Positions 16,924 to 56,766 of a stretch of DNA of 64,000 nucleotides are shown here, piece after piece. A model generated the notes under the pieces. That model had not been told where the DNA came from, searched no databases, and saw nothing but the letters and a program-made list of their open reading frames with translations. Origin of the DNA: a virus; the IMG/VR virus record IMGVR_UViG_3300031565_000014, positions 1 through 64,000 of that record; one strand, written 5' to 3'. Each line of letters begins with the position of its first letter. Within the stretch, counting starts at the first letter, position 1. The translations under genes were made by a program, and so were the position numbers.

Positions 16924-16924
16924 A

Positions 16925-23976: not shown

Positions 23977-23986
23977 AGTGGTAAGA

Positions 23987-24562: not shown

Positions 24563-24578
24563 AAAAATTAAAACCAAT

Positions 24579-25027: not shown

Positions 25028-25045
25028 GCTTCCAGCATTACATAT

Positions 25046-29445: not shown

Positions 29446-32400
29446 TTATCTCAGATTATCAAAAGTAGCCTGATCTCTAATACCCTTACCTGGATCAACA
29501 GCCTTACCTCTAAAGTAAAATGATTGTAATAAATGATTATAAAACTTAAAACTTTCTGCTTTCTGCCAAGCAAAAGGTCCTATATCTTTCTTATAATATG
29601 CTCTTTCGTCACCAATACCCCATCTAACTAAATCCTGAGTAAGCGTAAATAACTTATCTACAGTTGGTCCAAATATAACAGAAGTGTTATCTTTAAAGCT
29701 AAGCATTTGACTTATACCAGAAAGAGAAGGTGAGAAAGCTTCATTCTCACTTTTAACAAGCATTAATTGATAAATTACGTGAGCATGCATCCAGCCTCCC
29801 ATATTGAATGATGGTCTATTAGGATCATCAGATACCCAAGGTAGAGGTAATGGTCCTGATAAATTTCTCACTTTCTTAAATCTATCTTTATCATCATCGT
29901 CATAACCTAATAAGAACATAGATGCTGTAAGCAATCCTATAACAGCTAATTCTGCAGTTACAGCTTTAAGTGCTGATTTCTCTTCTTTAGTTAAACTATT
30001 TACTTGACCATTTCTTAAACCATTATACAATACAGCAAGGCCTACTAAAGCTTCTGCATAGTACCCTGTGTGCATATCGCCGTAAGCTAAATCAAACGTA
30101 CCACCTGCTTTTCTTTCTCCAGTAACTGCTGTAGATCCTAAAGCTTTCCAATAATTAGATATTTCAGGATCTACACTTGCACCATTAAGCCTTCTTCTAT
30201 ACATGGAATAAGCAAATTTTCTTAATGATATAAATGCTTTCCATCCTAAGTTTCTATCAACAAGTGGTTGTGAAAATTTAGAATAAGTACCTGCAGTACC
30301 TTCCAATATAGTCTGCATTTTAATTTTATATTCATTAAATTTTCTACCTCCTATAGCCCATTCTTTATCAACTATATTATCTTTTAATTGTATTTGACCA
30401 TCTTTAATTTCATAAGCGTCCTTAAGTTCTATTTTACTAATACTACCGTCTTCTTGAGTTTGCTCTACTTTCTGATTAATAAGTAAAGCTCCAAATAATT
30501 CAAAAGCACCTTCTTGTTCCATTAATTTTCTAAATGAAGTCATCCACGTTAAGTTAATAACGTCCCTTGTAGCGGAAGAAGTAGCGTATTCACCTAATTT
30601 AGATGAAAATCTATCTTCCATAAAATCAAATACTTCTAATAATTGAAAATTATAACTTTTAGCACCAACTTTGTATCTTTGTTTACTTATTTCAGTCATT
30701 AACTGCCAACCAAAAGCTTTACCTTTAATCATAGCAGTAGGGCTTACGTCTACACCGGCTATACCATTAATAAAATTATGATATGTTTGAGAAAATCTGT
30801 TTTTAATATCTGATGGAAAATTAAGACCTAAGTAAGATCTAGATGTTTCAGATATCATAGTATTAAGCGCCTTAATTAACCCAGGGTTATTAGCGCCCCA
30901 TCCTGCAACATTTTGCCCATAAAATTCTCTTTCTGTTAAAGCTTTAATCACTTTAGCTCTTGTAGTCTCACCTTTTTTATTGAATAATCCCCAAGCTCTT
31001 TTAGATTTTTTACCGCTAATTTCTGAAGATTCTTTAGCGTTAAGTTCATCTACAAGACTTACTAAAGATTGCGCAACAGGGTTGATCTTAATAAGTTCTT
31101 TTTGCTCATTAGCAGAATTCATATATTTTAGAGTAGACTGTATAACATCTAAAGATGTGATGTCTAAACCTATATTAAATGTACCTTTAATTACTAATGA
31201 TCTAGATGGGTTCATTTGTTCTGCTAAATTTAAAAACATGCCAACATCTTCTACATCGCTTAAATCATTAGGGTCAATATCATCTAAGTTTAAACCTGCT
31301 TCTTCAATATCATCTTTTTGAGCTTTAAACATCGCTGTAAACTGCTTACCTACAGTCTTAAGCTTAAGCTTTAAGTTTTCTAATTCATTTTTAGTAAAAT
31401 CTTTTGTCTGTAAAGTCTCAGTTTTATCTTTTCTAAATCTAGCTATTTCATTACCTAATTTAGCAGAATCTTCTAAGCCTTCTTGTGCTTTATAATGAGC
31501 TTTACGTAAAATTTCAAGAATCCTAAACATGTCAGGATCACTTTGTTTCATTTTTTCGTAATCTTTGTTGATGTACCTATCCCAACCTTCTAAAGACGTA
31601 TCCATGTCTTCAGCAGCTTTAGGTAGCCAATTACCCCACACATCTACTGTTTCACCTACTATACGTTTATTTTTATAATTTTCTTTAACTTCCCTAGTAA
31701 AGAATTCAAATATAGGTTGGCCAGGAATAGTCTCTATTGTATTACCTGATTCATCAAGTATTTTAATATTACTTAAATATTTAGAATTATTAGGTACGTT
31801 ATTACTCCATATAGAAGTTCTTAAATAAGCTGTAACCTCATTTTTATAAGAAATTCCTTCTATTTCCTCATCTTTTACTATTTTTTTACTAATATGAGAT
31901 CTTTCAAAAAATTCTTTAAACTCCTCACTTTGATTTATGTAATATCTATATATATTCTCACTAAGAAATTTGTCAGCATTAGCTTTAGATAAACTAGCTG
32001 TTTTTAAAGTAGATTTTAAGTGTTCACCATTATCTATATCGTGAATCCAAGTATTCATAATATCTATATAATCAGTAGATGCTTCTCTTGTTGTAATATT
32101 AGATATATTTTTAAATACTTTACCTATTGCTTTCCTTATACTTAAAGGAACTGGATTGTCTTCTTTTTTAGTGTTAAGTTCTTCTAATCTTGAAATATTT
32201 TCTTCAGTTAGATCTTCCTCCTCATATGAATTTAATATTGAATACTCTCTAGATTCAGCAGGTGTTAATCCTGATATACCTGGAATATTGTCTCTAAGAT
32301 CTAATATTTTTTGATCAACGTCTTTAACTTTAGTAATTAAAGTATCATTCATCTCAGAAGCCTTAACTTCACCGTTTTTATCTTTATTAGAAGTTTTTAT

Positions 32401-35400
32401 ACCTTGAATAATTTCTCTTAGTTCTTCTAGATTTTTAGGATCCTTTATACCAGCTTGTTCAAAAAGTTTAGATAATTCGTTATATTCTCTATTTAAATCT
32501 TCAAAATATTGATCATTAGGTGATTTTCTAGTATTTTTAGATATCCAATGTTCTCTTAATCTAGCGTATTCCTCTTTCCCTTCATCTGTTGAGAGATCAT
32601 AAGAAGTCTCTAAAAACTTTTCATATTCCTGAAGAGCTGTTTGAAAAGCTCCTTCTTTTTCAGTATACTTATAAAAAACATTATTAGAATTTCTATATTT
32701 AATAAGAGCCTTAGCTTCTGCTAGTGCTACACCTGTTTTTTTATTACCATACTCGTCTACTGTAGAATATAATCTTCTATATTCTTTCCATAAAACATTA
32801 ATAAGATCTAGTTCTTTTTGTTTTTCACTAGGATCTTCTTCTTTCTCACTTCTGTCAGTATACTCTTGAATTTTCTCAAGTATTTCAGATCTTTTAATAA
32901 AAGCATCTTTACCAATATTATATATTACACCATCAATAGTTTCAGTAGTTTCTAATAAAACTTTCTTAGGTGCATAAAACTCTTTAACATATGGTTGTTG
33001 GAAAAAGTTTAATTTATGTTGCTCTAAAGCAGCTCTTGCATCTAAATATTCTCTATAAGCACTTTCTTCATTAGTTTCTTGCCATTTAGTTCTAGCTTGG
33101 AAAGCTTCATACTTAAGCTTTTCTAAACCTGTTTTATGATCTTTATATTTATCTAAAAAAGCATATACTTTTCTTTCTTCTAACTCACCAGCTTCGTTTC
33201 TAAATAATTTTGTAGCTTCATAAGTTATAGCTTGACCTATTTGATCTACTCTATCAAAATGTCTATTAGTTCTTACTTTTTCTAATAATGGAGCAAGTTC
33301 TTCTAAAATTTGATTTTGCTCTCTTTGCGTTTTAAGAGCTGCATCACTTTTAGATAGTTTAATTAATTTTGCGTAACCTGATATTAATGGGTCCTGTGAA
33401 TTCATAGGAGATGTTAACCAAGAAAGCATGTTTGAGTCTTTAGACTTATTAGCTAAAATATCAGCAATCTTTTTAGCGTGATTTTCAATAGTTTTTATTT
33501 CATTCTCTAATTTTTTAATCTCACTATCTCTATTTACTTTTGAATTAGCGCTTTCATTTTTAAGTTCTTTTATACGTTCTTTTCTATCATTGATTAATTC
33601 ATCTCTTAAGCTTTTAGATTGATCTATTATAACAGAGCTAACACCTTTTTGTTGTATTTTTTTTATGTGAGAGTCTACTGATTTTAATTTACCTTGTATA
33701 ACACCTAATAAATCCATTATACCTGAATTATTAGGGAAGCCTTGTTCTGTGAGTATTTCGTTGACGCTTGTTACAAAAGTTTCATAAGACTTAATAGTTT
33801 GATAAGTAGCCATTGCTAATTGTAAGTCGGATAACTCAATTGTAGCTTGTTTTGTTAAATCAAAGAGTCTAGGAACCATAGCTTCTAACATAGTTTTAGT
33901 TTCCTCTAAACTACTTACTATAGCTTTAGTTCTTTCATGAGTTAACGCTTCTGTTGACTCAACTTTACTACGTATTTCATCATAATTATTATGAGTAATA
34001 GTTTCGTATTTACCTAACACACTAGCCATTTTCTGTAATGGATTATCACCGTATACAGTAGCTAAAAGCTCATTAAGACCTTTTATGTCTTTATTCTTCT
34101 TTAACTCTCTTAATTGAGAAGAAGTATGTGTATAAAAAGCATCAAGCATTTGTAAAACATCAGAATTATCTAAGTTTTTAGCTAAGTCTTCAGCTAATTT
34201 ATTAGATTCATCTATGGACATACGCTTATATGCAACATAGTCAGCTTTAGTTATTTCTATAGGCTCTATTCTAACATATTTAGATTTTAATATTTTAGCT
34301 AAATCTTTTACTGATGTATTTAAACCTAATTTAGAAACTGTAACATTTTTACCAAATACTCTTCTAAGCATTTGTCTAATATTATAAATTATCTTCTTAA
34401 TTAAAGAAGTAAATTCAGGAGTATTATTATCTAATAAAGATTCTTCTAAAGATTTGACTAAAGCTTCATCTGTTACAGCTGGGTCATTAATATCACTATT
34501 ATATTCTTCAGCAGATTCTTTTAATAAACGAGCCCCTTTTTCAGTAGAAGCTAACTCTGCAATTAGTTTATCATAAAGAGGTTTGTTTTCATTTCTAAGA
34601 GCTGTTACAAAAGGATGAGAGAATTCGTGAAATACTGTAGACATATTCATCTGTCCTTCTACAAAGTGAACAACACCATTATAATAAAAAGCTGGTTGAC
34701 CATTGTATGGATTTTTAGCATTTTTAGTAATTTGATAAGCTTGCGTCGCACTAACTACAGAATAAGGTACCCCTAGTTTTTCTGATAATCTATCAGCAAC
34801 AGCTCTAACTATTTCTAAAGAATTTTGAGATTCTACTTCAAAAGAATTAGATATAGACTCCATTGTACTAATAGATTCTATTTCACTAATTATTCTATCA
34901 GCATCCACTAAAGGGTCAGAAGATTCAACTTGTTGCTTTAGTGGGCTTTTTTTTGACGTAGTTTCTGAAGATTTACTAACTATTAATATGTTATTAGGAT
35001 TAAATATAACATTCTGCTTTATACCGATACCTTCCTTATCATTAGTATGGAGCTCAACTGAATCAGCCTTAGTTGTATTTATAATATTACTCTCATATTT
35101 ACGTAACGCACTTAACTGTGAAGGTTTAGCCAACATCTCAGGAGTAGGTTCTGTTCTATCAATAGTCTGAGCTTTTAAAAATACAGGAATAACATTAACC
35201 CCATATTTTTTAGCATGACTATATTCTTGTGAAAAAAACATACCGTTTTCTATGTCATGAGCATTGTATCTTTTTTTAGAAGGATCGAATTTATCAAAAG
35301 TACCGTTTGTACCATGAAAAAATAAAATAGGCTCACCATTAACATCTAGATACTTAGATGCTAACCCTGGTTGATTATCCCAGTCCCCGTACCATGACTT

Positions 35401-35556
35401 AAAAGAATTAGTATGAACTTGTGCATAAAATGCAAAAGCTTCATCATTAGATACCCCTAAACTTTTAAATTTTTCAAATAATAAACTAGGTTCCCCGTTT
35501 TTAGCATTAACACCTGTTAAATTACCCTGATTATCTCTAACTAAAGTACAACTCAT
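29446..35556 (-). CDS. giant polyvalent protein: ART-PolyVal, metallopeptidase, large helical body
   Basis: 2036 residues. Residues 1-50 (V-N-A-K-N-G-E-P-S-L-L-F) are a header typical of phage polyvalent proteins. Residues 50-200 are an ART-PolyVal ADP-ribosyltransferase-like domain: S-W-Y-G-D-W, then I-L-F-F-H-G-T (His81) and G-M-F-F-S. A zinc metallopeptidase motif H-E-F-S-H lies at 310-314. The rest is a long helical body with many coiled coils and a hydrophobic stretch near the C-terminus (A-V-I-G-L-L-T-A-S-M-F-L-L-G) followed by D-D-D-D-K. Its start shares a base with the stop of the 4041-residue gene (TAATG). Probably injected with DNA; effector role inferred from the family. Confidence 0.75.
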   Translation of the reverse strand: MSCTLVRDNQGNLTGVNAKNGEPSLLFEKFKSLGVSNDEAFAFYAQVHTNSFKSWYGDWDNQPGLASKYLDVNGEPILFFHGTNGTFDKFDPSKKRYNAHDIENGMFFSQEYSHAKKYGVNVIPVFLKAQTIDRTEPTPEMLAKPSQLSALRKYESNIINTTKADSVELHTNDKEGIGIKQNVIFNPNNILIVSKSSETTSKKSPLKQQVESSDPLVDADRIISEIESISTMESISNSFEVESQNSLEIVRAVADRLSEKLGVPYSVVSATQAYQITKNAKNPYNGQPAFYYNGVVHFVEGQMNMSTVFHEFSHPFVTALRNENKPLYDKLIAELASTEKGARLLKESAEEYNSDINDPAVTDEALVKSLEESLLDNNTPEFTSLIKKIIYNIRQMLRRVFGKNVTVSKLGLNTSVKDLAKILKSKYVRIEPIEITKADYVAYKRMSIDESNKLAEDLAKNLDNSDVLQMLDAFYTHTSSQLRELKKNKDIKGLNELLATVYGDNPLQKMASVLGKYETITHNNYDEIRSKVESTEALTHERTKAIVSSLEETKTMLEAMVPRLFDLTKQATIELSDLQLAMATYQTIKSYETFVTSVNEILTEQGFPNNSGIMDLLGVIQGKLKSVDSHIKKIQQKGVSSVIIDQSKSLRDELINDRKERIKELKNESANSKVNRDSEIKKLENEIKTIENHAKKIADILANKSKDSNMLSWLTSPMNSQDPLISGYAKLIKLSKSDAALKTQREQNQILEELAPLLEKVRTNRHFDRVDQIGQAITYEATKLFRNEAGELEERKVYAFLDKYKDHKTGLEKLKYEAFQARTKWQETNEESAYREYLDARAALEQHKLNFFQQPYVKEFYAPKKVLLETTETIDGVIYNIGKDAFIKRSEILEKIQEYTDRSEKEEDPSEKQKELDLINVLWKEYRRLYSTVDEYGNKKTGVALAEAKALIKYRNSNNVFYKYTEKEGAFQTALQEYEKFLETSYDLSTDEGKEEYARLREHWISKNTRKSPNDQYFEDLNREYNELSKLFEQAGIKDPKNLEELREIIQGIKTSNKDKNGEVKASEMNDTLITKVKDVDQKILDLRDNIPGISGLTPAESREYSILNSYEEEDLTEENISRLEELNTKKEDNPVPLSIRKAIGKVFKNISNITTREASTDYIDIMNTWIHDIDNGEHLKSTLKTASLSKANADKFLSENIYRYYINQSEEFKEFFERSHISKKIVKDEEIEGISYKNEVTAYLRTSIWSNNVPNNSKYLSNIKILDESGNTIETIPGQPIFEFFTREVKENYKNKRIVGETVDVWGNWLPKAAEDMDTSLEGWDRYINKDYEKMKQSDPDMFRILEILRKAHYKAQEGLEDSAKLGNEIARFRKDKTETLQTKDFTKNELENLKLKLKTVGKQFTAMFKAQKDDIEEAGLNLDDIDPNDLSDVEDVGMFLNLAEQMNPSRSLVIKGTFNIGLDITSLDVIQSTLKYMNSANEQKELIKINPVAQSLVSLVDELNAKESSEISGKKSKRAWGLFNKKGETTRAKVIKALTEREFYGQNVAGWGANNPGLIKALNTMISETSRSYLGLNFPSDIKNRFSQTYHNFINGIAGVDVSPTAMIKGKAFGWQLMTEISKQRYKVGAKSYNFQLLEVFDFMEDRFSSKLGEYATSSATRDVINLTWMTSFRKLMEQEGAFELFGALLINQKVEQTQEDGSISKIELKDAYEIKDGQIQLKDNIVDKEWAIGGRKFNEYKIKMQTILEGTAGTYSKFSQPLVDRNLGWKAFISLRKFAYSMYRRRLNGASVDPEISNYWKALGSTAVTGERKAGGTFDLAYGDMHTGYYAEALVGLAVLYNGLRNGQVNSLTKEEKSALKAVTAELAVIGLLTASMFLLGYDDDDKDRFKKVRNLSGPLPLPWVSDDPNRPSFNMGGWMHAHVIYQLMLVKSENEAFSPSLSGISQMLSFKDNTSVIFGPTVDKLFTLTQDLVRWGIGDERAYYKKDIGPFAWQKAESFKFYNHLLQSFYFRGKAVDPGKGIRDQATFDNLR

Positions 35557-38500
35557 TATTTTTTACAATTATTTAAACTATCCATAGCATCCTGTATTTC
35601 ATTCTGTATACCTTTTTGAATAACTTCATCAGATATTTCTCTTGGTAGAATATTAGGCATGACCTCTTTAGTTTCATTAGAGGGGTCATTAGATAATCTA
35701 AAGTTTTCTGCAAGTTGCTCATTAAGGTATTTATATGTTTTAGGAGCACTATTTTTCAAAGATACTCCATAATTTTCAAAAAATGACACAGGATTACCTT
35801 TTTCTGTTAATTCTTTTAAGTCACTTACGATATTATCAATTAATGTTTTGTTATAATCAAAATTTTCTTCACCTAAAGATTCTCCCATATTTTTAATATG
35901 CATCGGGTAAGTATTATTAAAACTAGTAGCTTCTTCTGTTACAAATGTAGTACTTTGGTTGTTTTTAATAATTTGTTCGTCTGTTACTTTATCAACCTCA
36001 GTAGCTTGTTGTTTTGGTTTATTGACAAAATCTTTAAATCCTTCTATATCTTGTCTTCCTGTAGCATTAACATACTCTTGAAACTTTTCTTGAGCTTCTT
36101 GTTTTTGTTGTGGGGTTATTTCTTGACTTAAACTTGTACTTGTAAGTTGAGGAGGTGATACTTCTGTTCTTTGTTTAATTTCATAATAAGCTTCCTTAAT
36201 ACTTTCAACTTTTCTAGCATTTTGATCTAAAGCTGATATAGAGCTTCCTCTTTCAAAAGAAGATACAACCATAGATTTAAAAGCCATTGCTCTTGATAAA
36301 TTTTTTATATTTTCATCAAGTTTTTCTGGTGTAAGATTTTTATACCAGTCAATAATGCTACCTTCTTCATCTGCTAATAAATTATTTGCAAACCAAAGGT
36401 CACTACCAGCACCTGTAAATGATCCAATAATACCAGAAATAAAACTATCCCAGTTTGTATATTTTTCTTTATCTTCTTTATTTAATTCTGGATATTTTTC
36501 TTTATTAAAATCAAAATAAGGTTTTCCATATTGTGAAGTATAAAACTTTATATTGTTATAGTACGCCCAATTACTTAATAATGCTTTTTCATCATCAGGT
36601 AAAGACTTTAATATTTCTTTCCAATATTTTTCTTTAATAGAGCGAGGTATATTTCTTGCTATATCTTTAGATATAGCTTCTTTTAATTCTCCTTTATTTT
36701 TAGGATAGCCATCTTTTCCTTGTAAAAAAAAGAAATTATCCATTGAAGAAGTTTGTAATTTTTTACCCCAAAGAGAACCCTTAAATACATCTACTTCATA
36801 ACCAGTTATTGTAGATAAATCTACTGTAGCATTATCCATTGCCTTTGCTACAAGTTCTACCATATCATCAATATATTCCTCTTTGGTAGGAAAATATTTA
36901 CTTAATCTAATAACAGCTTCATTGGATCCACTTATATCAAAATCTTTACTTTTTAATATTCCAATGGTTATTAAAGCTTTACCATTAGCATAGACTTCCT
37001 CAACTTCTTCGTTTTTAAATTTTCTTCCTTCTCTCTCAAAATCTAAGTGAGCTTTTTCATGTTCAACTAAAAATCTAACAAGTTGTTCTTTGGAACCATT
37101 GACTAGCCTATCATAAACATTTAAGTTTTTAAGAACAGTATTAAGAATAGGAAGTTGGTTATCTAAAACTTCTTTGTTAGAGTATTTATCTAATAATTCT
37201 TTGTTGATATAAACTTGTCCATCAACTACACCTGCAAATATTTCTTTACCTTGTGTATTATATATTTTTCCTATTTTATAATCTAAAACACTAGGAAGAT
37301 TAGATTTAAACCCAGCAGCTTCATATACTTCATTAGCTAATTCAGGAGTAGATTCAAATAGTTCTGCTTTAGGTACAGAATTCTCAACCTCTTCAGTAAA
37401 ATCTGGTCTTACTATCTGAAATGCATTTTCTACAGCTAAAGGTACTACAGTATAGTTATTGTTATCTTCTACTAGTGTTGTAGGTATACTTTCAACTTCT
37501 GCTGTACTTAAAGCTTCAAGAGCTCTTTGATTAATTACAGATTCATAATGGCCTAACGTAGATCCTGGAAATTCATTATCAAAATCTTTTCTTGTGTATA
37601 AAGTATGTTGATATTCATGCTCTATTACAAAATTTTGCCATTCTTCATAAGTTGTAAAAGTATCTGGGGCTAGAGCATCTGCTTTAGAATTTATTTTTTC
37701 ACCATGAATAGTCTCAAATAAGTTTCTAGGACTAGTCCAAGCTTTTTTACTAAAACCCTCTAGTAAAAGTTCTTTATCTAATAATATAACTCCTTCACTA
37801 TATTTAGCAGCAATTCTAGTATTTTGTTTACTTCTAATATTGTTAGAGTATTTCACTGGAACACCTTTATATGCTGATATTTCTATTACGTTAATTTGTG
37901 AAATATGATCATCTTTTTCATTAGGAACAGTGTAATCTTGTATTTTATATCTTATCTTGTTATCAACACGATTAACTTTATTAAATTTAGCTGTGTAACT
38001 ATTTAATATCTTAGTAGTAACTTTAACATCATTAATTTGATTACTTAACATTTGTACAAAATCTCCTTGAGGCATGTATCTCAAAATAGAATTCATACTT
38101 TTAGTATTATGACCTGATTGTAAAAAAGCATACATAGGTAATTTTGTGAAAAAATCTCTAACAAAAATATCTTTATGGTTTTGAAGTTCTTTAATATTTT
38201 CACTAACTCTTTCAACTAATTCACCTTTTGGTTTAGAAGTTATAGGTCCTATATTTTTTACATCACTATTTAAAGTAGGTAACTCTTTAAATTGTGTAAA
38301 TACAGCATATTCTTCTGCTAACTCAGGATACATTTTTGTTATTCTTAAAAACTGATCAGCAACAGTATTTGTTTTAGATGAAAATAAACTATTAATATTA
38401 AAGATATTACTTAACGCCATATCTCTAATTATTCTCTCATATGTTAATAAGTTAATTTTATTTTCAATATTATCTCCTGGTAGTAAATGTAAAAAATTAT

Positions 38501-41500: not shown

Positions 41501-44500
41501 TGACTAACTTACGCATTTGAGTAGGTAAAGTAGTTTTACCTTTGTATTTTTCATTTACGTCTGTTTGATCTTTTAGATATGCTAAAAATATTTCATTAAC
41601 TGTAAAGGGTAAAGTCTCTTTTAATTCTCTTGAATTATCAAAATCTTTATATATTACATCAGGTTTTCCGTTGGAAGTAACTGAGTTTATTTTAGAAGCA
41701 GATTCAAATATAGTATAATCTATACCTTGCTCCATCATTTGATCATGAAGTTTGTCAGCATTTTCACCAAACACTCCAGGAATTAATGGCAGTAAACTAT
41801 ATTTATGAAATGCTTGCAATGATATAGATCTATTTGAAGCTGGGTCTAAGTTATTAGCTAATGGCCCATAATATTGATACTTTCTTGGAGGAAAATATTT
41901 AACTACATCGTCAGTGTTTATATCTTCTTTATTAACTATTTTTTGAAATAACGTTTCTTGTTTATTCCAGTCCCACTTACCGCTAATAATAGATAATGTT
42001 CTATATGTATCTAATGACATATACCCCTGAGCATCTCCCTCAGTCATTTTCAAATAAGCTTCTAATCTTCTTTCTGTATCAACTTTGCTATAACCAAAAT
42101 CTTCAGTTAAAGTTTTAAACATGGCGTCATAAGCTGTAGATCTTACGTTGTTATCAGCTATTACAGATGTTCTAAGCTTACCGTCCCAAGAAGTAGATTT
42201 AGTAAATCCTTTAGATTCTGCTAAAGGTCTACCTACACTAGTATTTACAAACTCATTCGTACTTACATCATTGGAAAATTGTACACCTCCTGAAGCTATA
42301 GCTCCAATACGTTTATGAAAATCTTCTTTAGCCATATTAAACTGAGCAGGATCACCATATAATAACCCGAGCATGTCTAAATTTCTTAAAACATAATTAT
42401 AAGAAAATGCTTTAACTGCTAAATTTTTAGCTACATGACCTTTAGCCCCAGTTCTTAGCTCTATTTTTTGTCGTAAATTATCAGAAATATAAGGCATTTT
42501 ATTAAAATCATTCATGTCAAGATCTACAGCCTTAGACATAAATAATGATAAATCATTATAAATCATATCTCTAATAGCAGCTAATTCGCTATTATCTAAA
42601 ACACCACTATTCATAGATTGCTCTAATGTTACAATCTCTGTTGATGGATCACTAATATTATAATAATTTTTTATAGTTTCTTTTGTCTCATCGCTAAGTA
42701 TTTTATCAAATAAAACAAAGTCTTTACCATTCTCATAAAAATTACTTGAATTACTAATATTACTGTAAGGACTATCTTTTTTATTAAACTCAATCATTCT
42801 AGCTATTTCAGCATCTATAAAAGGAATAACCATTGCTGTAAATTGCTCATTAGCTATACTTAAGTTAGCTTCTTTAAAGTTTTCTAAGTCTATATATAAA
42901 TATTTATCTTGATTACTATCATTAACATTTCTTATTACAACAGCTGTAGCAGTAGATTTAGTACCATAACGCATTTGTTCAGATGCCCCTTTTAATAGAA
43001 GGTAATTCATGTTTTCTATTAATTTGTCACCTTGTGTTAATTTATTAGTTTTTTCACCGTTCTCATGGACAGACTCAGCAGTATTTGAAACGCCTAATAA
43101 TTCTTTACTTTCTATGCTACTATCTTTTCTTCTTTTACCGCTAGTATCAAACATAGCTCGTTTAGTCATACTAGCTGAAGCCCAAGCATAGTCTGGTCCT
43201 AAATGATGTAATTCTTCAATAGTATCTACAGTTTGATGCTTACCATTAAGTTGGTCAACATGTTCTACACTATTTAGTAAATTAATCATTACTGTCTGTG
43301 TAGAGAAAGTTTTATTAGTATAAACAGGATTATTACTAGCATCAGGCACCATAGCCACACTTACTGTAGGTGAGTTTTTTGCTATGATTTTTGCTATACT
43401 TTTTAAATGCTTATTATCATCACTAAATATTTCACTTAATGACCTATACATTTTAGGTTCATAGTCAGTACCTTCTTTTTCAGCCTTTTCTTTTTTCTTT
43501 AAATTATTTTCATGAGACTTAACTAAAGACCGTAATAAAAAATTTAAATTTAGTTTTGAATCCCCTTTTCCTTGAGTAGCTTCTCTTAACTCTTTAGCTA
43601 GTTCACTATTATAACCTATATCTGATAAGTCAAAACCTATATCTGTAAGAAATCCTACTATTCTAGTGCCCTCTATAAAATCTACTTTATGTTCACCGTG
43701 TTGTGGACTGAACTTTCTATATTTATCATAAATAGCTTCAAGATCTAAAATATTCCCATATCTAGGATCTTTAATAATCATGTGTTTACTAGGATCTGCT
43801 GTTTTAAATGCGTTATCAAGATTATTTACAGTTTTATCTACAATAGCATCATTATGTTTATGTATTAAATCATGTGTAACTATTCCATCATCATTTTTGT
43901 GTTTTCTATTTAAAGTGACTGAAACAGGTGTTGAATTTAAACCAAAAGACTTATGGAATTCAAACCATGTAGCAGCTGTACTAATATTAATATCTTTAGT
44001 ATTTCCTAATCTAGCTAGCAATATATTAACTATATTACTATATGGTTTAGTAGATTTAGCATAAGAATCTAAAACTTCATACATGGCATCAATACCTCTT
44101 GTATCTGTAAGTAAGTTAGTTAATAAAGTACTTACTTGAAAACTATCTGCAAGCATAGGTACACCAAATCTATCTAATCTAAAGTTTCCTTCTGAGTCTA
44201 CAAAAGGTAGTGTAGACATTAAATAGTCTATTATGTCTGTTCTATAATTACTTGGGTCTACATTAGACTTACTAAGTAACTCTACTCCAAGGTCTTTATC
44301 GGCAACTTCTTCATCAATATTTTCAGCTAATTTTTCTTTTTTAGATTCTTTTGATGATATATTATTACCAAATATAGAATTAGCAAGATGATGATCAGCT
44401 ATTAATTTAAAATTATTTAATACTTGTTCAAAAATTTCTTGTGTTCTACCTGTAGCATCTTCCGGGTAGTTTTTGTTATTATATTTATCTAATAAACTAT

Positions 44501-47500
44501 TATAAGCATTAGCATAAGCGTTATTTCTTATTGCACTACTTTTGAAAAACTGAGTAGTAAACTTATTAGTGTCGTTCATCTTATTTTTTAAGTCAAGATA
44601 TTCAGACATCATAGAGTCAAACATTGACATTACTTGTTTAGTTTCATCTTTACTAAGATTAATATTAGCACTTGATGGTGCTATTATTTTACCTTTGTTG
44701 AGTTTACCAAACATCATGTTACTAACACTAGCATTATATTCGTTTAAATTACCAACTCTAAGTTTATCATAAAGTTCTTTAACAGAATTTTGTGTGTTAA
44801 TGGTGCTATAGTCTATTGCTTTAGTCCCTTTAAAAAAGTTTTTTAAGAAGTTTAAAATTCTTTTAAATATATTATTAGTTGCAGTTCTACCTTTAAAGAC
44901 TTTAGTACCATCTGATAACATGTAAGATCTAAAATCTTCAGCTAAGAATTCTTCTATTTCTAAATAACTAGCATCTTTAAATTTAACTTGTTGTCCATTA
45001 TGATTAGTAAAACTACCGGATAACTTACTTACTTCATTGTATAATTTAGTTTTATCTCCAACAGTTAAAAATAATTGAGAAAAAGCATGCCATGATTCAT
45101 GATATAAATCTGTAAAATTACTTCCATTAAATAATGTTATTCCAGCAGAGCTAAATGTAGCGTATGCGTCAGAATTAACTATATTAAATGCTTGTTTGTA
45201 ACCTAGTAGTTTATTAATATCTGAAGATTCATACCATTTTTGAGCCTTCTCTATTTGTTCTTTAGTTACACCTGAGTCTAATTTTTTAGATCTCATTAAT
45301 TCATCAGGGTCTACTTCCGTCTCTGTAAAAGGGTTAGGTGTAAATTTAGTTTTAGCTTTAACTTCATTAGTTTGTTGTGTTGGTTTAGATAACTCTCCCC
45401 CTTTATATGGAGCAACTCTATTCTTCTTTTTTAATTCCGTTGCTATAAGTTCTAATAATTGTTTTTTCGCAACACTCATGGAAGCTCCCATACCTCTAAG
45501 CATATCTTCAACACCTTTTTCTCCAGCTTCTTTTAATCTTTTTCTTTCAGCATTAAGTATATCTAATTTCTTTTTATAATCAGCATATTCAGCAGTTTTA
45601 CTTAAATCTACTGATATTGGATAGAAAGTTTTACCGTCTACATCATCTATAGACAATTCTATTACTCCATTATTATCTTTTCTAATAGTATTTTGGTGTG
45701 TATTAAAGACTATGCTTTTTCCTCCTTTTGATATATCAGCTTGTTTATAACTTTTACCATAGCCTGACATGTCTATTGGAGAATATATTATTTCAACCTC
45801 ATTAGTTTGTTGTGCTGTCGAAGTCGTTAGAATAGGGCCTGCAGTAGTACCATAAGGAGTTGTCTGGGTCATAGTACCCGCAGTCTCATTTATTTCTTTA
45901 GTTTCTTCTTGAATAGCTTGATCTGAAGGAGTAAATTTAAAATATGGGTGTTTTCTAAAAATAACCTTTTTACCCTTATAATTAAGTGTTTCATTAGTAG
46001 TATAAGCGTTTTGAATTATGAAGTCATCATAACTCATTGTTTCCATAGTTATCTCGTTATTTTCTACTTTAATAGGAGCACTAATATTTTTCCCTATAAA
46101 ACTACTTAATATATTAATTCTATTTTTTTGATTTTTAGTTACCCCGTCTACTACTTCCCCATCACCTAAAGGAGAATTAAAAAAACTATCTTTCAAGTAT
46201 TCAGGTGTAACATTAATTTCAGCAACATTTTTGCCTTTAACATTAGTGACTAGTCTAATGTTTGTAGGAAGAACTTCTTTTGAATTATAGTCGTATTTAA
46301 AATATAATTGATCACCAACTAATGTAGTTAATATCTCATGTCTTTCTTTTGCATTAAGTACTTTGTTTTTACCTAATTTTCTTGGATTAGAAAGAGCTGG
46401 GTTAAAAAGTAATTCTGAAATTATATTTTGTTGAGCTTGTGTAAGTTTATTTTGTCTTACGGTAATATTATCTTGCTTATTAGGATTAGTTAACGTAATC
46501 TGGTAAACACCACGTTTAACTTCTGTAAGAGCATATCCTTGATATGTTTCAGAAAAATCAACATCCTTAAGTTGTGTTTTACTTTTTTCTCCTAAGTTTA
46601 CTATAGGAAATCCTTCACTTAAATATTCTATGTCTAGTAAAATAGCTTTACCGGACTCTAAAAGCTTATTTTGGAGCTCTACAAGCTTGTTATATTCATC
46701 TTGTATATATTTAGATGCTTCTTTACTATTTATCTTCTTAGAATGCGCTATTTCTTTTGGCGTTTGTATAGTAGATGCTCTTTGTCTAACACCATCAACT
46801 ATTACGTCAAATTCTTTACCTTCTTTTATTTCTTTTTTTAATGAAGTATGTGTCCAGTTACCGTCGGTATCTTTAACAGGTTTTCTTGTTTTAAAATAAA
46901 TAGCCTTGTAGCCTTCTTTTTTTTCTTTTGAAATATTGTAGTTTTCATCAAAATATAAAGTATTACCTTCATTATCTGTAACTACTACATTTGCTGCTTT
47001 ATTAAATTCTTCAGGATTCTTTTCTTTAAAGTCTTTATCTTGCTCATAAAGATCATTACTTTTTTCAAGTTCTTCTGATGTTACCATCTTTAATCTGAAA
47101 CCTGTATGACCATTATAAGTTAATGTTGTAAAATCAGGATTACCTGGGAATTCAGAACTAAGCTTTCTTAATAAACCATAAGCGTAAAATCCTTCACTAT
47201 TTACATTGCCATATGAAGCTTCCCAAAAGTAAGTAACATTAGGTGTTTCAGGTCTATCAGAAGCTTTAGTAACTTCTTTAGGTGGTTCAACTGCTTCAAC
47301 TCTTTTATTAGTTGGTACAGCTGCATCTATCTTACTTCTATTAACAGCAATTTGTACTGGAGTTAATGTAGACTCTAAGTACTCTACTATTTTAGTAGGA
47401 TCTTGAAATAAAGTAGCTGTTTCACTAATCTCATTAAAGTTATCTTTAAAATAAGATAGAAACTCACTATCATCAACCATTGCTTGAAGAGCATACATAG

Positions 47501-47681
47501 GCATAATATGTACAGCTTCTAAGGCAAGTTCATGACCTACTTCTTCTGCTAAACTATTATACTGATTTTGTAATAAACTCTTTAAGTTTAAGAGTTGATT
47601 ATTATCAACTAAAGTTTGTAATTCTTTATACACACTAGCGTATACGTATTCTAAAGCTTCATCTCCTAATGCACAAATCAT
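35556..47681 (-). CDS. giant virion RNA polymerase / polyvalent protein
   Basis: 4041 residues. D-F-D-V-D at 2327-2331, within T-G-S-D-F-D-V-D-K-M-F-I, is the metal-binding loop of two-barrel (YonO/crAss-type) RNA polymerases. Around it (about 1300-2900) are conserved crAss-like blocks such as T-E-G-D-A-Q-G-Y-M-S-L and K-Y-S-L-L-P-L-I-P-G. Three HExxH sites: H-E-S-W-H 861-865, H-E-Y-Q-H 3355-3359, H-E-K-A-H 3541-3545. Low-complexity linkers with Q-Q-T-N-E mark domain borders at about 620, 775 and 3890. By analogy the protein is packed in the tail/virion and transcribes early genes after injection. It is longer than the roughly 2,200-residue single RNA polymerase proteins of relatives, so several functions are fused. 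Confidence 0.85.
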   Translation of the reverse strand: MICALGDEALEYVYASVYKELQTLVDNNQLLNLKSLLQNQYNSLAEEVGHELALEAVHIMPMYALQAMVDDSEFLSYFKDNFNEISETATLFQDPTKIVEYLESTLTPVQIAVNRSKIDAAVPTNKRVEAVEPPKEVTKASDRPETPNVTYFWEASYGNVNSEGFYAYGLLRKLSSEFPGNPDFTTLTYNGHTGFRLKMVTSEELEKSNDLYEQDKDFKEKNPEEFNKAANVVVTDNEGNTLYFDENYNISKEKKEGYKAIYFKTRKPVKDTDGNWTHTSLKKEIKEGKEFDVIVDGVRQRASTIQTPKEIAHSKKINSKEASKYIQDEYNKLVELQNKLLESGKAILLDIEYLSEGFPIVNLGEKSKTQLKDVDFSETYQGYALTEVKRGVYQITLTNPNKQDNITVRQNKLTQAQQNIISELLFNPALSNPRKLGKNKVLNAKERHEILTTLVGDQLYFKYDYNSKEVLPTNIRLVTNVKGKNVAEINVTPEYLKDSFFNSPLGDGEVVDGVTKNQKNRINILSSFIGKNISAPIKVENNEITMETMSYDDFIIQNAYTTNETLNYKGKKVIFRKHPYFKFTPSDQAIQEETKEINETAGTMTQTTPYGTTAGPILTTSTAQQTNEVEIIYSPIDMSGYGKSYKQADISKGGKSIVFNTHQNTIRKDNNGVIELSIDDVDGKTFYPISVDLSKTAEYADYKKKLDILNAERKRLKEAGEKGVEDMLRGMGASMSVAKKQLLELIATELKKKNRVAPYKGGELSKPTQQTNEVKAKTKFTPNPFTETEVDPDELMRSKKLDSGVTKEQIEKAQKWYESSDINKLLGYKQAFNIVNSDAYATFSSAGITLFNGSNFTDLYHESWHAFSQLFLTVGDKTKLYNEVSKLSGSFTNHNGQQVKFKDASYLEIEEFLAEDFRSYMLSDGTKVFKGRTATNNIFKRILNFLKNFFKGTKAIDYSTINTQNSVKELYDKLRVGNLNEYNASVSNMMFGKLNKGKIIAPSSANINLSKDETKQVMSMFDSMMSEYLDLKNKMNDTNKFTTQFFKSSAIRNNAYANAYNSLLDKYNNKNYPEDATGRTQEIFEQVLNNFKLIADHHLANSIFGNNISSKESKKEKLAENIDEEVADKDLGVELLSKSNVDPSNYRTDIIDYLMSTLPFVDSEGNFRLDRFGVPMLADSFQVSTLLTNLLTDTRGIDAMYEVLDSYAKSTKPYSNIVNILLARLGNTKDINISTAATWFEFHKSFGLNSTPVSVTLNRKHKNDDGIVTHDLIHKHNDAIVDKTVNNLDNAFKTADPSKHMIIKDPRYGNILDLEAIYDKYRKFSPQHGEHKVDFIEGTRIVGFLTDIGFDLSDIGYNSELAKELREATQGKGDSKLNLNFLLRSLVKSHENNLKKKEKAEKEGTDYEPKMYRSLSEIFSDDNKHLKSIAKIIAKNSPTVSVAMVPDASNNPVYTNKTFSTQTVMINLLNSVEHVDQLNGKHQTVDTIEELHHLGPDYAWASASMTKRAMFDTSGKRRKDSSIESKELLGVSNTAESVHENGEKTNKLTQGDKLIENMNYLLLKGASEQMRYGTKSTATAVVIRNVNDSNQDKYLYIDLENFKEANLSIANEQFTAMVIPFIDAEIARMIEFNKKDSPYSNISNSSNFYENGKDFVLFDKILSDETKETIKNYYNISDPSTEIVTLEQSMNSGVLDNSELAAIRDMIYNDLSLFMSKAVDLDMNDFNKMPYISDNLRQKIELRTGAKGHVAKNLAVKAFSYNYVLRNLDMLGLLYGDPAQFNMAKEDFHKRIGAIASGGVQFSNDVSTNEFVNTSVGRPLAESKGFTKSTSWDGKLRTSVIADNNVRSTAYDAMFKTLTEDFGYSKVDTERRLEAYLKMTEGDAQGYMSLDTYRTLSIISGKWDWNKQETLFQKIVNKEDINTDDVVKYFPPRKYQYYGPLANNLDPASNRSISLQAFHKYSLLPLIPGVFGENADKLHDQMMEQGIDYTIFESASKINSVTSNGKPDVIYKDFDNSRELKETLPFTVNEIFLAYLKDQTDVNEKYKGKTTLPTQMRKLVTIGMFDGGDSTSEENKVLAEKYQSLLDALVAKNKEDLIEELGLEYTTNEDGVKTFSKKGLENLTNAIQTELSERDLGDNELEFIQVDKNGNLKVDLSFSPSAEKIETALVSLANKRIVKPKVAGEPLIQASSSILTDNDMPRNATKAEKEEYGTNGLKFYSYDPKTGTKAMQVKISMQGKFKHLLLRADVLKKAKDENISTLKALNLLIEDKEWISENKEILTMVGVRIPTQGLNSMDVMEIAEFLPTHAGNIIIAPSEIVAKTGSDFDVDKMFIMMPSLMNLDGKTHKYKYDKSIKDSTQSLKNNLSELIEKQKELYETLYNEVTPEVIAAKSEIYNEFKESISDLNSKVKLAKEELELLKLRSVTENVNDEIAYVENNIEKLNDHITNLLSDRNELFELDATEKTQKIKEDIANTKEEINKVKLNLANSSAAAIQTSLVDVLTDILLKPDNFANLITSIDGDTVKNKANELGKFMSYNSSQSLIDQDHAKKGIHAFQILLSSYNLDKHRKNNEGMATLGQAAIDLTFKSEFNRIGFHLNPYMMLDTKDKDGEIIKTQSDIALNLLLPHNVAKNGGIDLSRLKDTEGEDIFYILNLLINGWVDIEKDAWIFNVQGNKKVEPTLVMLVMAGVPFDKAADFVSNPYVKEYVESQNYYESLFVEAHEGSNFTQGNPKIKALNDILKKYDSDNFKTEKLKNPAYDTEFLKQIQDRRKELIGENAIKTSSLVSINVESLSEKDKKDAFGAFLHFIELQNIAEDLTQLKLHMNYDTTVSRTLYDIHQKEANIPSLRTGKIYAEEFVDSLLEGSPIGTFNISDFQSDLWSQVLILRNDKTLNDKIKSITSDPGFQTTLRETFGKGNQAKYVEAYRNNLIKYLLQNSLLESRSKDFYKSLATKTSLTKKEISNLKYGAAVLDKVLYISKDKIREQYKRKDFTNASEYFKLGLAPVPLFTFTHEGKNSEQEYENFVIEREYLRHSMPINEVMGTPMFEEYKNSPEEADNNFLHLLPGDNIENKINLLTYERIIRDMALSNIFNINSLFSSKTNTVADQFLRITKMYPELAEEYAVFTQFKELPTLNSDVKNIGPITSKPKGELVERVSENIKELQNHKDIFVRDFFTKLPMYAFLQSGHNTKSMNSILRYMPQGDFVQMLSNQINDVKVTTKILNSYTAKFNKVNRVDNKIRYKIQDYTVPNEKDDHISQINVIEISAYKGVPVKYSNNIRSKQNTRIAAKYSEGVILLDKELLLEGFSKKAWTSPRNLFETIHGEKINSKADALAPDTFTTYEEWQNFVIEHEYQHTLYTRKDFDNEFPGSTLGHYESVINQRALEALSTAEVESIPTTLVEDNNNYTVVPLAVENAFQIVRPDFTEEVENSVPKAELFESTPELANEVYEAAGFKSNLPSVLDYKIGKIYNTQGKEIFAGVVDGQVYINKELLDKYSNKEVLDNQLPILNTVLKNLNVYDRLVNGSKEQLVRFLVEHEKAHLDFEREGRKFKNEEVEEVYANGKALITIGILKSKDFDISGSNEAVIRLSKYFPTKEEYIDDMVELVAKAMDNATVDLSTITGYEVDVFKGSLWGKKLQTSSMDNFFFLQGKDGYPKNKGELKEAISKDIARNIPRSIKEKYWKEILKSLPDDEKALLSNWAYYNNIKFYTSQYGKPYFDFNKEKYPELNKEDKEKYTNWDSFISGIIGSFTGAGSDLWFANNLLADEEGSIIDWYKNLTPEKLDENIKNLSRAMAFKSMVVSSFERGSSISALDQNARKVESIKEAYYEIKQRTEVSPPQLTSTSLSQEITPQQKQEAQEKFQEYVNATGRQDIEGFKDFVNKPKQQATEVDKVTDEQIIKNNQSTTFVTEEATSFNNTYPMHIKNMGESLGEENFDYNKTLIDNIVSDLKELTEKGNPVSFFENYGVSLKNSAPKTYKYLNEQLAENFRLSNDPSNETKEVMPNILPREISDEVIQKGIQNEIQDAMDSLNNCKK
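40689..40703 (-). other. RNA polymerase metal-binding motif D-F-D-V-D
   Basis: Residues 2327-2331 of the 4041-residue protein. Cellular multi-subunit enzymes have N-A-D-F-D-G-D; crAss-like phage enzymes keep D-F-D-x-D with a replaced Gly. Here Val takes the Gly place. The three Asp that would hold the catalytic Mg2+ are all present. Confidence 0.8.
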
Positions 47682-50600
47682 TACTTACAATTATTTTTAA
47701 GGGCGTTAATAAAACCAGATTTAAAATCTTTAGAATCTTGCTTAATTTTTGCCAAAGCTTTATCTTTATCTAATTTTTTAGAATTCACTTGCAAAGTGGC
47801 AATCATTGCTTTAACAGAATCTTTACTTAACATAGATTTTTCTTTTTTAACAGCTGTTTTAGTAACAGTGCTTGTTTTCTTAACTTGCTTAGTTTCACCA
47901 TCAGCATCTTTTATTGTAGTACTATCTTTATCTTGCTTAACTACTTTTTGTTGTTTACCTTCTACTTCTACAAAAGATCCTTCGGCTACTTCTCCAACAG
48001 GTCCTGGTTTATTTATAGAATTTTTATAATCAGCAATTACTTCATCGACTAAGTTATTTATAAAAATAGTGAAATTTGCTGTACCTCCCAGTAATTTTTC
48101 TAATTTATTTTCTTTACTCTTGAGTAATTTCTCAATTTTTGTGTAAACTTTATCTCTTAAAGCATTATCTTTTATTGTATGTATAGAAGGAATTTTAGGT
48201 ATCACATCCTTCATTACATTTTTTACATATTTACTTGTAGAAACAATGTCTGCTTCATCTAAAATTTCATCTGTAATCTCATTTGTAATTTCTTGAACTA
48301 TATAAACATGTGACTTTCCTTGTCCTTTAGACCAAGCTTTTAATTGTGGCGTTTCTTCCGTAATTATACTGGTATTATATACTTCTGTAGAATCTCTATA
48401 ACCTACATAGGATATTTTAAATAATTTATTACCATGTTTAAATATTTTAGTCTGAGCTACACCAATACCTTTAATTTTATCTGTATAAGATTTAATAACA
48501 AAACCTGTATCTTTAAGTGAAGCTAATGCTTCTGTTTCTTGCTCGTTTAGTGGACTTTCTTCAAGATCTATTGCAATATTAGGGTCTATTCCAGTTGGTA
48601 TTTTTTGACCTTTAGCTGGAATTATACTATCATCTTCAACTTTCTTTTTAACAGTTTCTTTATCTACATAACCTTTTACAGCTTTTTTAAGTAAAGATGT
48701 TATTGGTGATCTTTTTAGTTTAATTAATCCGGGAACACCATCAACAGTACTTTCTGGAGTAACTTGTTCAAATCCTTCAGCAGATGTAACATTTACTGTA
48801 TCACCATCCATTTCATAATTAGAAACTAAAGTAAAGATGTTAATACTACTTGATTCTATTCCTTCAGAAGATCTTAGTAAATCCTCATATATTGTTTGTT
48901 GGTCAGACCATCCTTTAACTCTAGGTTCAAATTCACCTTCGTTAAATATGTATTTAGCTGCTGTAGTTTGATTCCCTGCTTTAAGTGTTTTAAAATCTAT
49001 AATAGCTATTGTACCATCTGGAGCAACAGCTACTAAATCTAAAGTACCACCAACACCGTCAAGACCTGTAGCTTTCTTTTCAGCGTCTGTAAATTCCATA
49101 TAAGTAAATACATCATTAGCTACAAATTTATAACCTTGTTTTTCTAGATTATCTTTAAGTGTAAAGAAAGCATCTACCATTATCTCAAATTGCTCTTGCT
49201 CTATGTTTACTTTAAATCTACTAGATTTAGCATTCATCTCATTAGCTGTTTCTAGATAATTTTCTCTGTTTGCTTTAACTTCTTCTTTTGTTTTACCGTC
49301 AAATATATCTCTACCAACTATATCAGCTAAGTTACCTCTAGCAGCTCCTTGAGCCATATTGTCATTAGATTCAGTTGTTGTGCCATTTACTCTATCTTTA
49401 AAATTAGACTGTCTTTCTAATTTAAGTTTACCATCTGTATAAATAGATGTTTGTGACTTACTTCCACCATCTTGTTGTGTTGATTTTAGTTCTGCTTTTA
49501 ATTCTGTAGCTTTTTTCCAAGCTTCTAATAGTTTAAAAAATTCAGCTTTATTATTTCTCCAAACAGCTTTTATAAGAGTAGTGCCTTGCATTTTCATATA
49601 TTCAGAAACAGATTGTTCATCTATTCCCCAATCTTCTACAATATTTTGAATATCTGATAATAAAAGATTTTCTTTTCCGTTTCTATCTAAATTAGTATTT
49701 GAAAATTCATCTATTGTTTTTGATATTTCCTCACTTTCAAGAAAAATCATTTCTCTATCTATAAGTGCTTCTAGTTCAACTTTTTTAGCTTCAGTTTCAT
49801 TAGATTGTTGTGTTGGTTTAGAAATAGTTGTTGTAACTGTTTTAAAGTTTTTATTCTTCTCTTGTAACGCAGATAGCTTATCTAAAGTTTCTTGTTGCTT
49901 ATCTACTTTAACGGCTTCCTCGTCAACTACTTCTTTAACTTTAGCTTTTTCAGCATCTTCTTTAGCTTGAGTTTCACCTAGTATTTTATATTTAGATTTA
50001 AGATTCTGTATAACTTTAGGATTTTTTTCAAATAAGATATCTACATCACCATAAGCTTCTTGTTCATCTTTGTCTAATGCTGTAAAGGCATCAACTATTT
50101 CATTAAAGAAATCTATAGATAAATCATTACCCCCTTCTGATTGAGGAAATATAAAAGTAGCATATTTAAATATATTAGGATATTTCTCTTGATCAATTGC
50201 GTCCTCTATTTTACCTTCACCCTCTTCTTTAGTAATCTCTTCTTGAATAGGTTTAAGTATACCTTTAGCAAGATATTGTATTACTTCCGCAACAACTGTT
50301 GGGTTTTGAACAGGCTTTAATGTGTGAGCATCAAAAATTTCATTAGGAAATCTTTGTTCACTTTCTTCATCAAATATTTTAGCAAGATCTTCTGGTAATA
50401 AAAATACACCAAATTTATCTAGAAGTTCGTTGGCTAACTTATTCATTTCCTCTGACGTATAATGAGTCTCAAGAACTTCTTTTAAATAATCTTTACGATT
50501 AGCCCATTTATCTCTATAAGATTGTTCTAATGCTGTAAAGTGATTCATGAAACCTTTAGGATCTGCTAATACATTAATAGATTTAGATAAATTGTTACCA

Positions 50601-56300: not shown

Positions 56301-56766
56301 TAGTATTAGCAAATTCTTGACGTTCTATGTTTAATAAATCAACACCACCTTGCCAATATTTATCACCGCATTTTTCATCATCCATGCACGTTCTTAAAGC
56401 TTCTGATCTTTGCATTTCTTGATTCCAATGTCTAGTCCACGTAATATCATAAACCATATGGTCATCTTCGTAAAAGGGTTTAAAAACCCCTCTTGCAGCA
56501 TCTACGTTTTGTGGTAAAGAAAGATCACTATTAGATATCTTTCTTAGTTGACTTTCCATGTTACCCAACCATTCATCTCTACGTTCTTGATTAGCTCCTC
56601 TAGTTAATGGAGCATTTAGTATGCTATTATATGCACTATTAATTTGCTCCCAACCTTGATCATATTGACCTTGTTTTGTTGCAAGAGCTCCTTGAAAAAA
56701 GTTATAATCAGGATTGAATGTTACATTAGGGATGTAGTCTGTTACACCCTGTAAGTATGTTGCCAT
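53308..56766 (-). CDS. crAss-like tail/ejection-type structural protein
   Basis: 1152 residues. The start (A-T-Y-L-Q-G-V-T-D-Y-I-P-N-V, then K-Q-G-Q-Y-D-Q-G-W and D-L-S-L-P-Q-N-V-D-A-A) is the form of a protein conserved next to the giant genes of crAss-like phages. Long helical segments with Lys/Asn/Ile run through 200-700 and a beta-rich C-terminal third begins near 850. No enzymatic motif is visible. Probable tail-barrel cargo or tail assembly protein. It is preceded by the largest gap (84 bases) of the minus block, which might contain a promoter. Confidence 0.65.
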   Translation of the reverse strand: MATYLQGVTDYIPNVTFNPDYNFFQGALATKQGQYDQGWEQINSAYNSILNAPLTRGANQERRDEWLGNMESQLRKISNSDLSLPQNVDAARGVFKPFYEDDHMVYDITWTRHWNQEMQRSEALRTCMDDEKCGDKYWQGGVDLLNIERQEFANTTDEQSLKTGMSNYVDNFNMMKEAQKLAKEAGFEIIQEAPNGNWLVTQKNGSIAERPLSDFISAAMSTNQRAINFYKGKAKLLRVSDQESYAQIYGDITAAQEQQIAKVKNAQNLNNQAAKEAKGKVSSAKREIDYISNGGVKKITPKSILEAELEKLQQDLNIYEGSSARIQNTANSTNSAIENVGIEGVIQNPAMSDNIIASAMMNGDIMNSARAIANINTSQTLKANPFVVQAISHQNAMQRDAINNENSLLKEFIKGDMSVEDIALLTDNRDLLDKIKNIQADRDAIELEKLEKIPKLKTKTYDEPSIVDWLPDQEGYDKYVDKINSVINTVKDEHQKLSVSVSDKLTAEYNALYSDKEGSNFKGVAQTTTKIGDQLKKVAKDVLKNMSLTEMLKYGIEPGELKAFINDFPDSKTDILPASIPAKYNGKFFEKILEVGGKIGSTVSYANIGINGAPAEKLSRLFQLNVEKNKYASDYVENKIYNSVYTPETKIQLNKAEQVKKKAITEHKQITADYAVKSGNSDFIDENGNVKNFNNLANNMLVKGDYEKYFADGALIGFTGTSEANELLSEAENVFFGITPWKEGYTKPEAKKFIEEKLGITLSDDALNNLLTKSVLDIDRWARKMGTPYDTYVFDREALAGLANMHAKYSSYTEGLFEHYNSQDKVLDNSKFGDLGGTSGLAMGKYGVTTGAVTIGEDDVVRSQLREFVNDVSAFSVIDGNLLANTMNFESVPSVPEGSVYLVTSGGGGSTANEADINSLLGLLQNDYKTKNGIKPKSPIVTFDRREVDENVSEVTFHINNEAAEANKVASKYTMYINNSDLPKYGVSAGESSATLNSRALLDKKGDNYSLNSIRGEDYGKVTLTNVNGAQSSVEFTVPVYDPYKDAFVQETVESYNYSSVGETDYGNYELELLQEQDKFVAINYSKKNIFDYLKTSKNISTDDANYLYGGLTKKALISIIENPNNIPLVLSHPTAYSTPEAHQKALTLLNN

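Follow-up and report, generated by a model that had tools for sequence, protein, structure and literature searches.

Terminal cysteines at the gene breaks of a virion RNA polymerase cargo module in a Crassvirales phage

The locus, its genes and the phage that carries them

The stretch of DNA analysed here (the window) comprises bases 1-64000 of the 72,772-base IMG/VR record IMGVR_UViG_3300031565_000014 and contains three minus-strand ORFs of 1873, 4041 and 2036 aa, which an earlier interpretation made without database searches (the sequence-only reading) had described as three giant genes lying end to end. Indeed, all three proved to be open throughout. In order of transcription they encode cargo protein A (P0003; 47681..53302), cargo protein B (P0002; 35556..47681), which is the predicted virion RNA polymerase, and cargo protein C (P0001; 29446..35556), A and C being the first and last members of the chain proposed below. 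The A/B and B/C gene pairs each overlap by one base, the stop TAA and the start ATG forming TAATG. All features of A, B and C cited below lie on the minus strand.

By homology, the source phage is a member of Crassvirales. Upstream of the module lie ring proteins 1 and 2 (Pfam CrAss_Ring_1, E=2.5e-14; CrAss_Ring_2, E=1.6e-19) and, within the structural block, a crass muzzle-like protein (PHROG structural protein, E=3.5e-61), so that the earlier assignment to the crAss-like phages stands. A primase, a DnaB-type helicase and a second helicase are encoded on the strand opposite the module. Several other plus-strand genes of the window were recorded in passing: a homologue of the ClpS adaptor (6679-6975; E=1.5e-13), which could redirect the host Clp protease; a DUF2201 metallopeptidase-like/VWA protein near an AAA ATPase, a MoxR/VWA-like pair (17904-19205 and 19676-20953); a second PD-(D/E)XK-type protein slightly above the Pfam cut-off in the replication block (22981-23976), a kind of protein described for this block in crAss-like phages (PMC7886860); and a 670-aa ORF (25025-27037) whose start resembles the exonuclease domain of a DNA polymerase (..VYDFETLPN..) and which has no Pfam match.

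The RNA polymerase core of B (residues 1755-2718; 39528..42419) was located by alignment with phi14:2 g066 (E=3e-27) and PDB 6vr4 (E=1e-16), the solved phi14:2 polymerase, and sequence alignment places the catalytic DFDVDK motif at residues 2327-2332 (40686..40703). The match between phi14:2 gp66 and protein B was also obtained by tblastn (E=3e-23), and in the region preceding DxDxD the residues K435, G440 and Q445 (numbering of the aligned slice) are invariant across five phages. The whole 4041-aa protein found no match in PDB by sequence search, and 6vr4 was reached with the polymerase slice; no relative was retrieved with the 4041-aa protein as single query, and hundreds of loci were retrieved with a five-sequence polymerase alignment. 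The proposal that the middle gene encodes a two-barrel-type RNA polymerase is thus borne out, and on this homology B is predicted to be a two-barrel virion RNA polymerase of the Crassvirales type. In a related phage, cr108_1, about 290 bases split the polymerase gene (gp054/gp053; locus L005, 21806-22097) exactly where the catalytic DFDxD lies, which may point to an intron or similar element.

Judged by its homologues, the three-gene set is the virion RNA polymerase cargo module of a Crassvirales phage. Protein A is the positional counterpart of phi14:2 g067 and, via its PDDEXK segment, the counterpart of crAss001 gp47; residues 1566-1884 of C (29905..30861) form a region homologous to phi14:2 g065 (E=9e-5; about 3e-63 with an iterated profile) and to crAss001 gp49. 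The annotation of phi14:2 g067, g066 and g065 is based on MS/MS of virions, and crAss001 gp47, gp49 and gp50 have been detected in virions by MS (PMC10172136). Because these homologues occur in phi14:2 and crAss001 virions, delivery of polymerase and enzymes as one package, also put forward earlier, is well supported by homology to those two phages. A transcription block with several large multidomain proteins, some of them PDDEXK proteins, has been described by Yutin et al. 2021 (PMC7886860), and an existing GenBank record already contains the words 'RNAP associated protein fused to zincin protease'. The polymerase with its associated proteins is therefore a known module of which the window copy is a further member.

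The other domains of the module can be assigned with differing confidence. The ART-PolyVal domain of C (residues 44-190; 34987..35427; Pfam PF18760, E=1.2e-11) is a solid assignment by profile, the Pfam match spanning residues 71-157 with 46 bits against a gathering cut-off of 31.2; its HGT, FFS and (Q)xVIFNP motifs align with those of other ART-PolyVal segments, AlphaFold2 confidence is low there, and ART-PolyVal matches also occur in other crass cargo proteins. A PD-(D/E)XK nuclease in A is a motif-level assignment: the segment at residues 1321-1478 (48869..49342) matches PDDEXK_1 with E=0.021 and below the cut-off (15.2 vs 22 bits), its core (GGTLD..., IDFK) lies at about residues 1419-1440, an alignment shows a G-x-x-D / D-x-K / Q-x3-Y core common to the relatives' segments, including that of crAss001 gp47, and cr108_1 gp052 is matched with E=0.0013. 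HExxH sites are present at residue 310 of C and at residues 861, 3355 and 3541 of B. The first of those in B belongs to a segment (residues 760-1010; 44652..45404) homologous to one near the C-terminus of crAss001 gp47, so that what is found near the end of A in crAss001 lies in the N-terminal part of B in the window; the other two lie in a C-terminal region (residues 3150-3720; 36522..38234) that AlphaFold2 models in part with confidence and for which Foldseek gave no match. In the HExxH segment of C (residues 220-470; 34147..34899), E311, H314 and E364, the last a candidate for the distal acidic ligand of a zincin, are invariant in 36 sequences and the first His of HExxH varies; an AlphaFold2 model of C residues 1-470 had just two confident stretches, namely the first ~40 residues and residues 245-370, and found no significant Foldseek match in PDB. 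Because of this partial confidence and the lack of a significant structural match, the peptidase reading stays at motif level. All of the motifs named earlier (DFDVD, PD-(D/E)XK, ART-like and HExxH) could be located in A, B and C. The idea of a polymerase fused with effectors holds in so far as ART, nuclease-like and HExxH segments share its module, but the ART lies in the third protein and not in the polymerase polypeptide.

The sequence-only reading had also regarded the 4041-residue protein as unusually long. This does not hold among relatives, whose complete RNA polymerase ORFs range from 1653 to 5639 aa (n=109), 41 of the 109 having at least 4041 aa; together with cr130_1 gp79, of 5801 aa, these rule out exceptional length. 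Only six of the 65 polymerase ORFs without fusion to gene A reach 4041 aa.

Cysteines at the ends of the cargo proteins

The most unusual feature of the three genes is one that the sequence-only reading missed, namely the distribution of their cysteines. If A, B and C contained Cys as often as the remaining ORFs of the window do, their 7,950 residues would include about 84; four are present, and each of the two junctions is flanked by one Cys per side. At A|B, the lone Cys of A is residue 1872, at position -2 (..NNCK*; codon 47687..47689), and B begins MIC.., with Cys at residue 3 (47673..47675). At B|C, the only other Cys of B is residue 4039, at position -3 (..NNCKK*; 35565..35567), and C begins MSC.., its lone Cys being residue 3 (35548..35550). 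The DNA at the two junctions is alike (AATTGTAA..TAATGA..TGT). The three large minus-strand ORFs upstream of the module (53308-56766, 56851-59253 and 59259-63854; 1152, 800 and 1531 aa) have two Cys each, 3-6 residues apart, and crAss001 gp45 (residues 390 and 398) and phi14:2 g069 (-52 and -43) have one Cys pair each, 8-9 residues apart; such close pairs suggest local disulfides in these other cargo proteins. Among relatives, the rule by which upstream cargo proteins were selected for a comparison of Cys parity retained Cys-free proteins only.

The same arrangement was found in a sample of 159 IMG/VR loci (147 distinct) from two polymerase-alignment scans, in which C-type proteins were identified with a homology profile, their Cys playing no part in the choice. 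A Cys lies within the first nine residues of 105/105 C proteins and within the last ten residues of none of 100. Among 121 polymerase ORFs unfused to C, 120 have at least one Cys among their final 12 residues and 119 exactly one. These frequencies represent enrichments of 113-fold at the start of C and 80-fold at the end of B, and among the residues tested only Cys stands out, the terminal sequences otherwise varying freely. At 46 loci B directly follows an ORF of 1000 aa or more; all 46 of these B proteins have an N-terminal Cys, and 45 of the preceding ORFs have a C-terminal one. Internally, Cys makes up 0.07 percent of residues in chain proteins, the figure for the remaining ORFs of these loci being 0.91 percent. 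Around the N-terminal Cys there is more than the residue itself: the N-terminal tag of C (residues 1-45; 35422..35556; AlphaFold2 pLDDT 84-88 over residues 1-40) has a related segment in relatives, and a profile of the C N-terminus finds 26/77 B N-termini, 6/14 small members and 0/49 fused A+B proteins, which indicates that a related segment accompanies the Cys.

In relatives, neighbouring genes may overlap or be separated by up to tens of bases, and the Cys lies 1-9 residues from the end or 3-9 from the start. In crAss001, DAC15, cr85_1 and several IMG/VR loci, gene A is on the opposite strand and keeps its C-terminal Cys; because an opposite-strand gene A still obeys the rule, the rule acts at the protein level. 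Beyond the IMG/VR set it is obeyed in Steigviridae, Intestiviridae, Suoliviridae (cr4_1, cr10_1 and cr130_1) and the outgroup Flavobacterium phage Fpv3.

The cultured phages phi14:2 and crAss001 allow comparison protein by protein. Like the window, phi14:2 (Steigviridae) has the order g067-g066-g065, a homologous polymerase core with DFDxDK and a homologous third protein, and its Cys layout is the same across the three: the last residue of g067, MAC..ECK in g066 and MSC in g065. Its gp66 has 2180 aa vs 4041 aa in B; unlike gp66, B has an HExxH segment ahead of the polymerase and is greatly extended at its C-terminus, and C, unlike its phi14:2 counterpart, carries an ART. The crAss001 proteins gp47, gp49 and gp50 likewise share homologous segments with the window proteins and obey the terminal rule, with gp47, unlike A, on the strand opposite gp49/gp50. 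Their Cys lie at -3 in gp47, at 5 and -9 plus one internal position in gp50 and at 5 in gp49, and the peptide pairs predicted to be disulfide-linked are ICGANTLYEL at the C-terminus of gp50 with CAIIPQVR of gp49, and CNS at the C-terminus of gp47 with CITTNSTIEELAAK of gp50.

Some proteins depart from the pattern or match it in part. Some polymerases with an N-terminal Cys (for example those of L105, L113 and L115) have no partner within the sequence examined, and at a further locus (L133) the upstream ORF has no Cys although the polymerase has an N-terminal one. Cys purging is not strict, because gut phages such as cr130_1 and ctcc615 keep about 15-25 internal Cys. Such internal cargo Cys are frequent in these gut phages and absent in phi14:2, in the part of Fpv3 seen and in the window, a difference perhaps related to the oxygen exposure of the hosts. 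In the epsilon crAss-like phage crAssE-Sib (L173), a 2208-aa protein (15401-22027) has its only Cys as last residue, and downstream of it lies a 752-aa protein of the form MGVKC..ECR (22651-24909); these two members fit the rule, and the polymerase and last chain member were not located in this phage.

Gene fusions, inserted members and the polymerase tree

In several relatives the breaks between the genes are absent, and the Cys change with them. Where A and B form a single ORF, the N-terminal Cys of B is gone. A single A+B+C ORF was found at ten loci, and the seven complete examples (4627-5639 aa) contain no Cys at all. Taken by junction, Cys is present at B|C in all 117 cases with separate genes and in none of the ten with fused genes. 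In ctcc615 (Intestiviridae), in which B and C are fused, A ends SSCR and the BC protein starts MSC and has a Cys-free end. The opposite case, an additional break, is provided by loci in which a small extra protein lies between B and C; this protein has one Cys at each end. Where the gene found between B and C does not show this pattern, the Cys of B and C are still in place; such genes resemble insertions that are not part of the chain.

On a FastTree tree of the polymerases, the B|C state changes five times and the Cys changes with it, with agreement in all four supported independent pairs. For A|B, where states come from a coarse length-based classifier, there are 11 changes; about seven pairs agree, none oppose and about two do not differ. 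A fusion call by length alone errs for seven long polymerase ORFs with an N-terminal Cys (L098, L100, L104, L105, L113, L115 and L116), and three of these (L100, L104 and L116) are accompanied by an ORF on the opposite strand with a C-terminal Cys. Three loci (L048, L103 and L110) were set aside, as forced TAG read-through had merged B and C. We have thus shown by comparison of predicted proteins that Cys occur on both sides of gene breaks, are missing from free ends and are missing where genes are fused, with a few loci unsettled.

A proposed disulfide chain and its alternatives

We consider the best explanation of these observations, and a probable one, to be that head-to-tail disulfides concatenate the separately made cargo proteins. 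Head-to-tail bonding is favoured because it predicts Cys-free ends, pairs at the breaks, their loss in fusions and inserts with two Cys, whereas chance, nucleotide signals or homodimers do not; two lone Cys are most simply joined by a disulfide, and crass virions also form disulfides elsewhere. According to this model, A (nuclease-like), B (polymerase with HExxH) and C (ART, HExxH and the g065/gp49-type region) would, by homology, be carried in the head and enter the host on ejection, after which B would transcribe the early genes. One disulfide would link the C-terminus of A to the N-terminus of B and a second the C-terminus of B to the N-terminus of C, and the bonded A-B-C would be a single head-to-tail thread leaving the virion in fixed order. 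With internal Cys absent, the unfolded chain would be kept from mispairing on its way through tail and periplasm; A, B and C would come apart in the host cytoplasm, which is reducing; and a gene fusion would be a peptide bond doing the same job as a Cys pair. In this fuller form, that of one covalent cargo thread with one disulfide per break, fed through the tail in order and dismantled in the cytoplasm, with fusions and Cys pairs interchangeable and swapped repeatedly across the order and its outgroup, the proposal seems to us reasonably likely. Since crAss001 gp45 is expected to leave N to C (PMC10172136), A would, by analogy, go first. Among the points against a disulfide chain are that phages assemble in a reducing cytoplasm and that many of the hosts are gut anaerobes; the model would have to account for oxidation under such conditions and also for the copy number of each protein.

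When considering such a model, it is important that other roles for the terminal Cys are weighed. They might join neighbouring proteins without a disulfide, either through a shared metal ion or by noncovalent docking of a C-terminal tail into the next N-terminal segment. A reducing assembly compartment would suit such joining, and the related segment around the N-terminal Cys could offer a docking surface as well as a thiol; however, there are just two Cys per junction and no evident further ligand nearby, the ends vary freely apart from the Cys, and interprotein disulfides are known in crass virions (PMC10172136), which leaves this an unlikely account. Like-with-like homodimers in the head, start to start and end to end and without any A-B-C chain, would draw on the several copies of each cargo protein estimated per virion (PMC10172136), but the start of the first member and the free end of the last have no Cys, fusion takes away both halves of precisely the junction it abolishes and both halves are present in inserted members, so that we regard homodimers as very improbable. 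The alike DNA of the two window junctions and the one-base gene overlaps could be taken to mean that the end Cys are by-products of nucleotide signals conserved where stop and start codons overlap in a standard Crassvirales transcription module. Yet spacing and Cys position vary in relatives, and the rule holds with gene A on the opposite strand kilobases away, as in the crAss001-type order, which contradicts such an origin and makes it hardly credible.

A further reading concerns the purpose of the module and is compatible with the chain model: as the sequence-only reading proposed, the module may deliver host-attacking polyvalent effectors (ART, peptidase and nuclease), with the polymerase as one payload among several. 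It is encouraged by the ART-PolyVal, PD-(D/E)XK-like and HExxH segments spread across A, B and C and by the combination of such domains in the polyvalent proteins of phages and conjugative elements (Iyer et al. 2017; PMC5512222), which, like the window proteins, are large and delivered and combine ART-PolyVal with segments of putative peptidase and nuclease type; the window module differs from these in its two-barrel RNA polymerase core and in being split over three genes. The peptidase was not confirmed by fold search, and an ART-type N-terminal match is found in only a minority of relatives, and we hold this reading as a tentative one.

Returning to the disulfide chain, two known systems come closest to it. 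The virion polymerase of N4-like phages (Schitoviridae) is a T7-like single-subunit enzyme. Like B it is giant and ejected, and it is Cys-free, which has been explained by passage through the tail and periplasm (PMC3715699); unlike B, it has no partner chain and no terminal Cys reported. In the crAss001 tail, interprotein disulfides have been observed by cryo-EM (Bayfield et al. 2023; PMC10172136); these stabilise rings and hubs, and the sections of that paper used here make no mention of cargo-cargo disulfides. The proposed linkage device, a Cys pair per gene break that is interchangeable with fusion, appears from the comparisons made here to be new. We know of no counterpart for it. The Cys rule itself found no mention in the open literature searched, a scope outside which the report of Drobysheva et al. 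2020 on the phi14:2 polymerase falls.

How a megadalton cargo of large enzymes makes an ordered exit through a narrow tail is an open question for the crassviruses (Bayfield et al. 2023; PMC10172136). If the disulfide chain proposed here is true, it would answer the question of ejection order for the most abundant human gut viruses and would explain why their cargo proteins have shed Cys, and the idea can be tested on virions already cultured.
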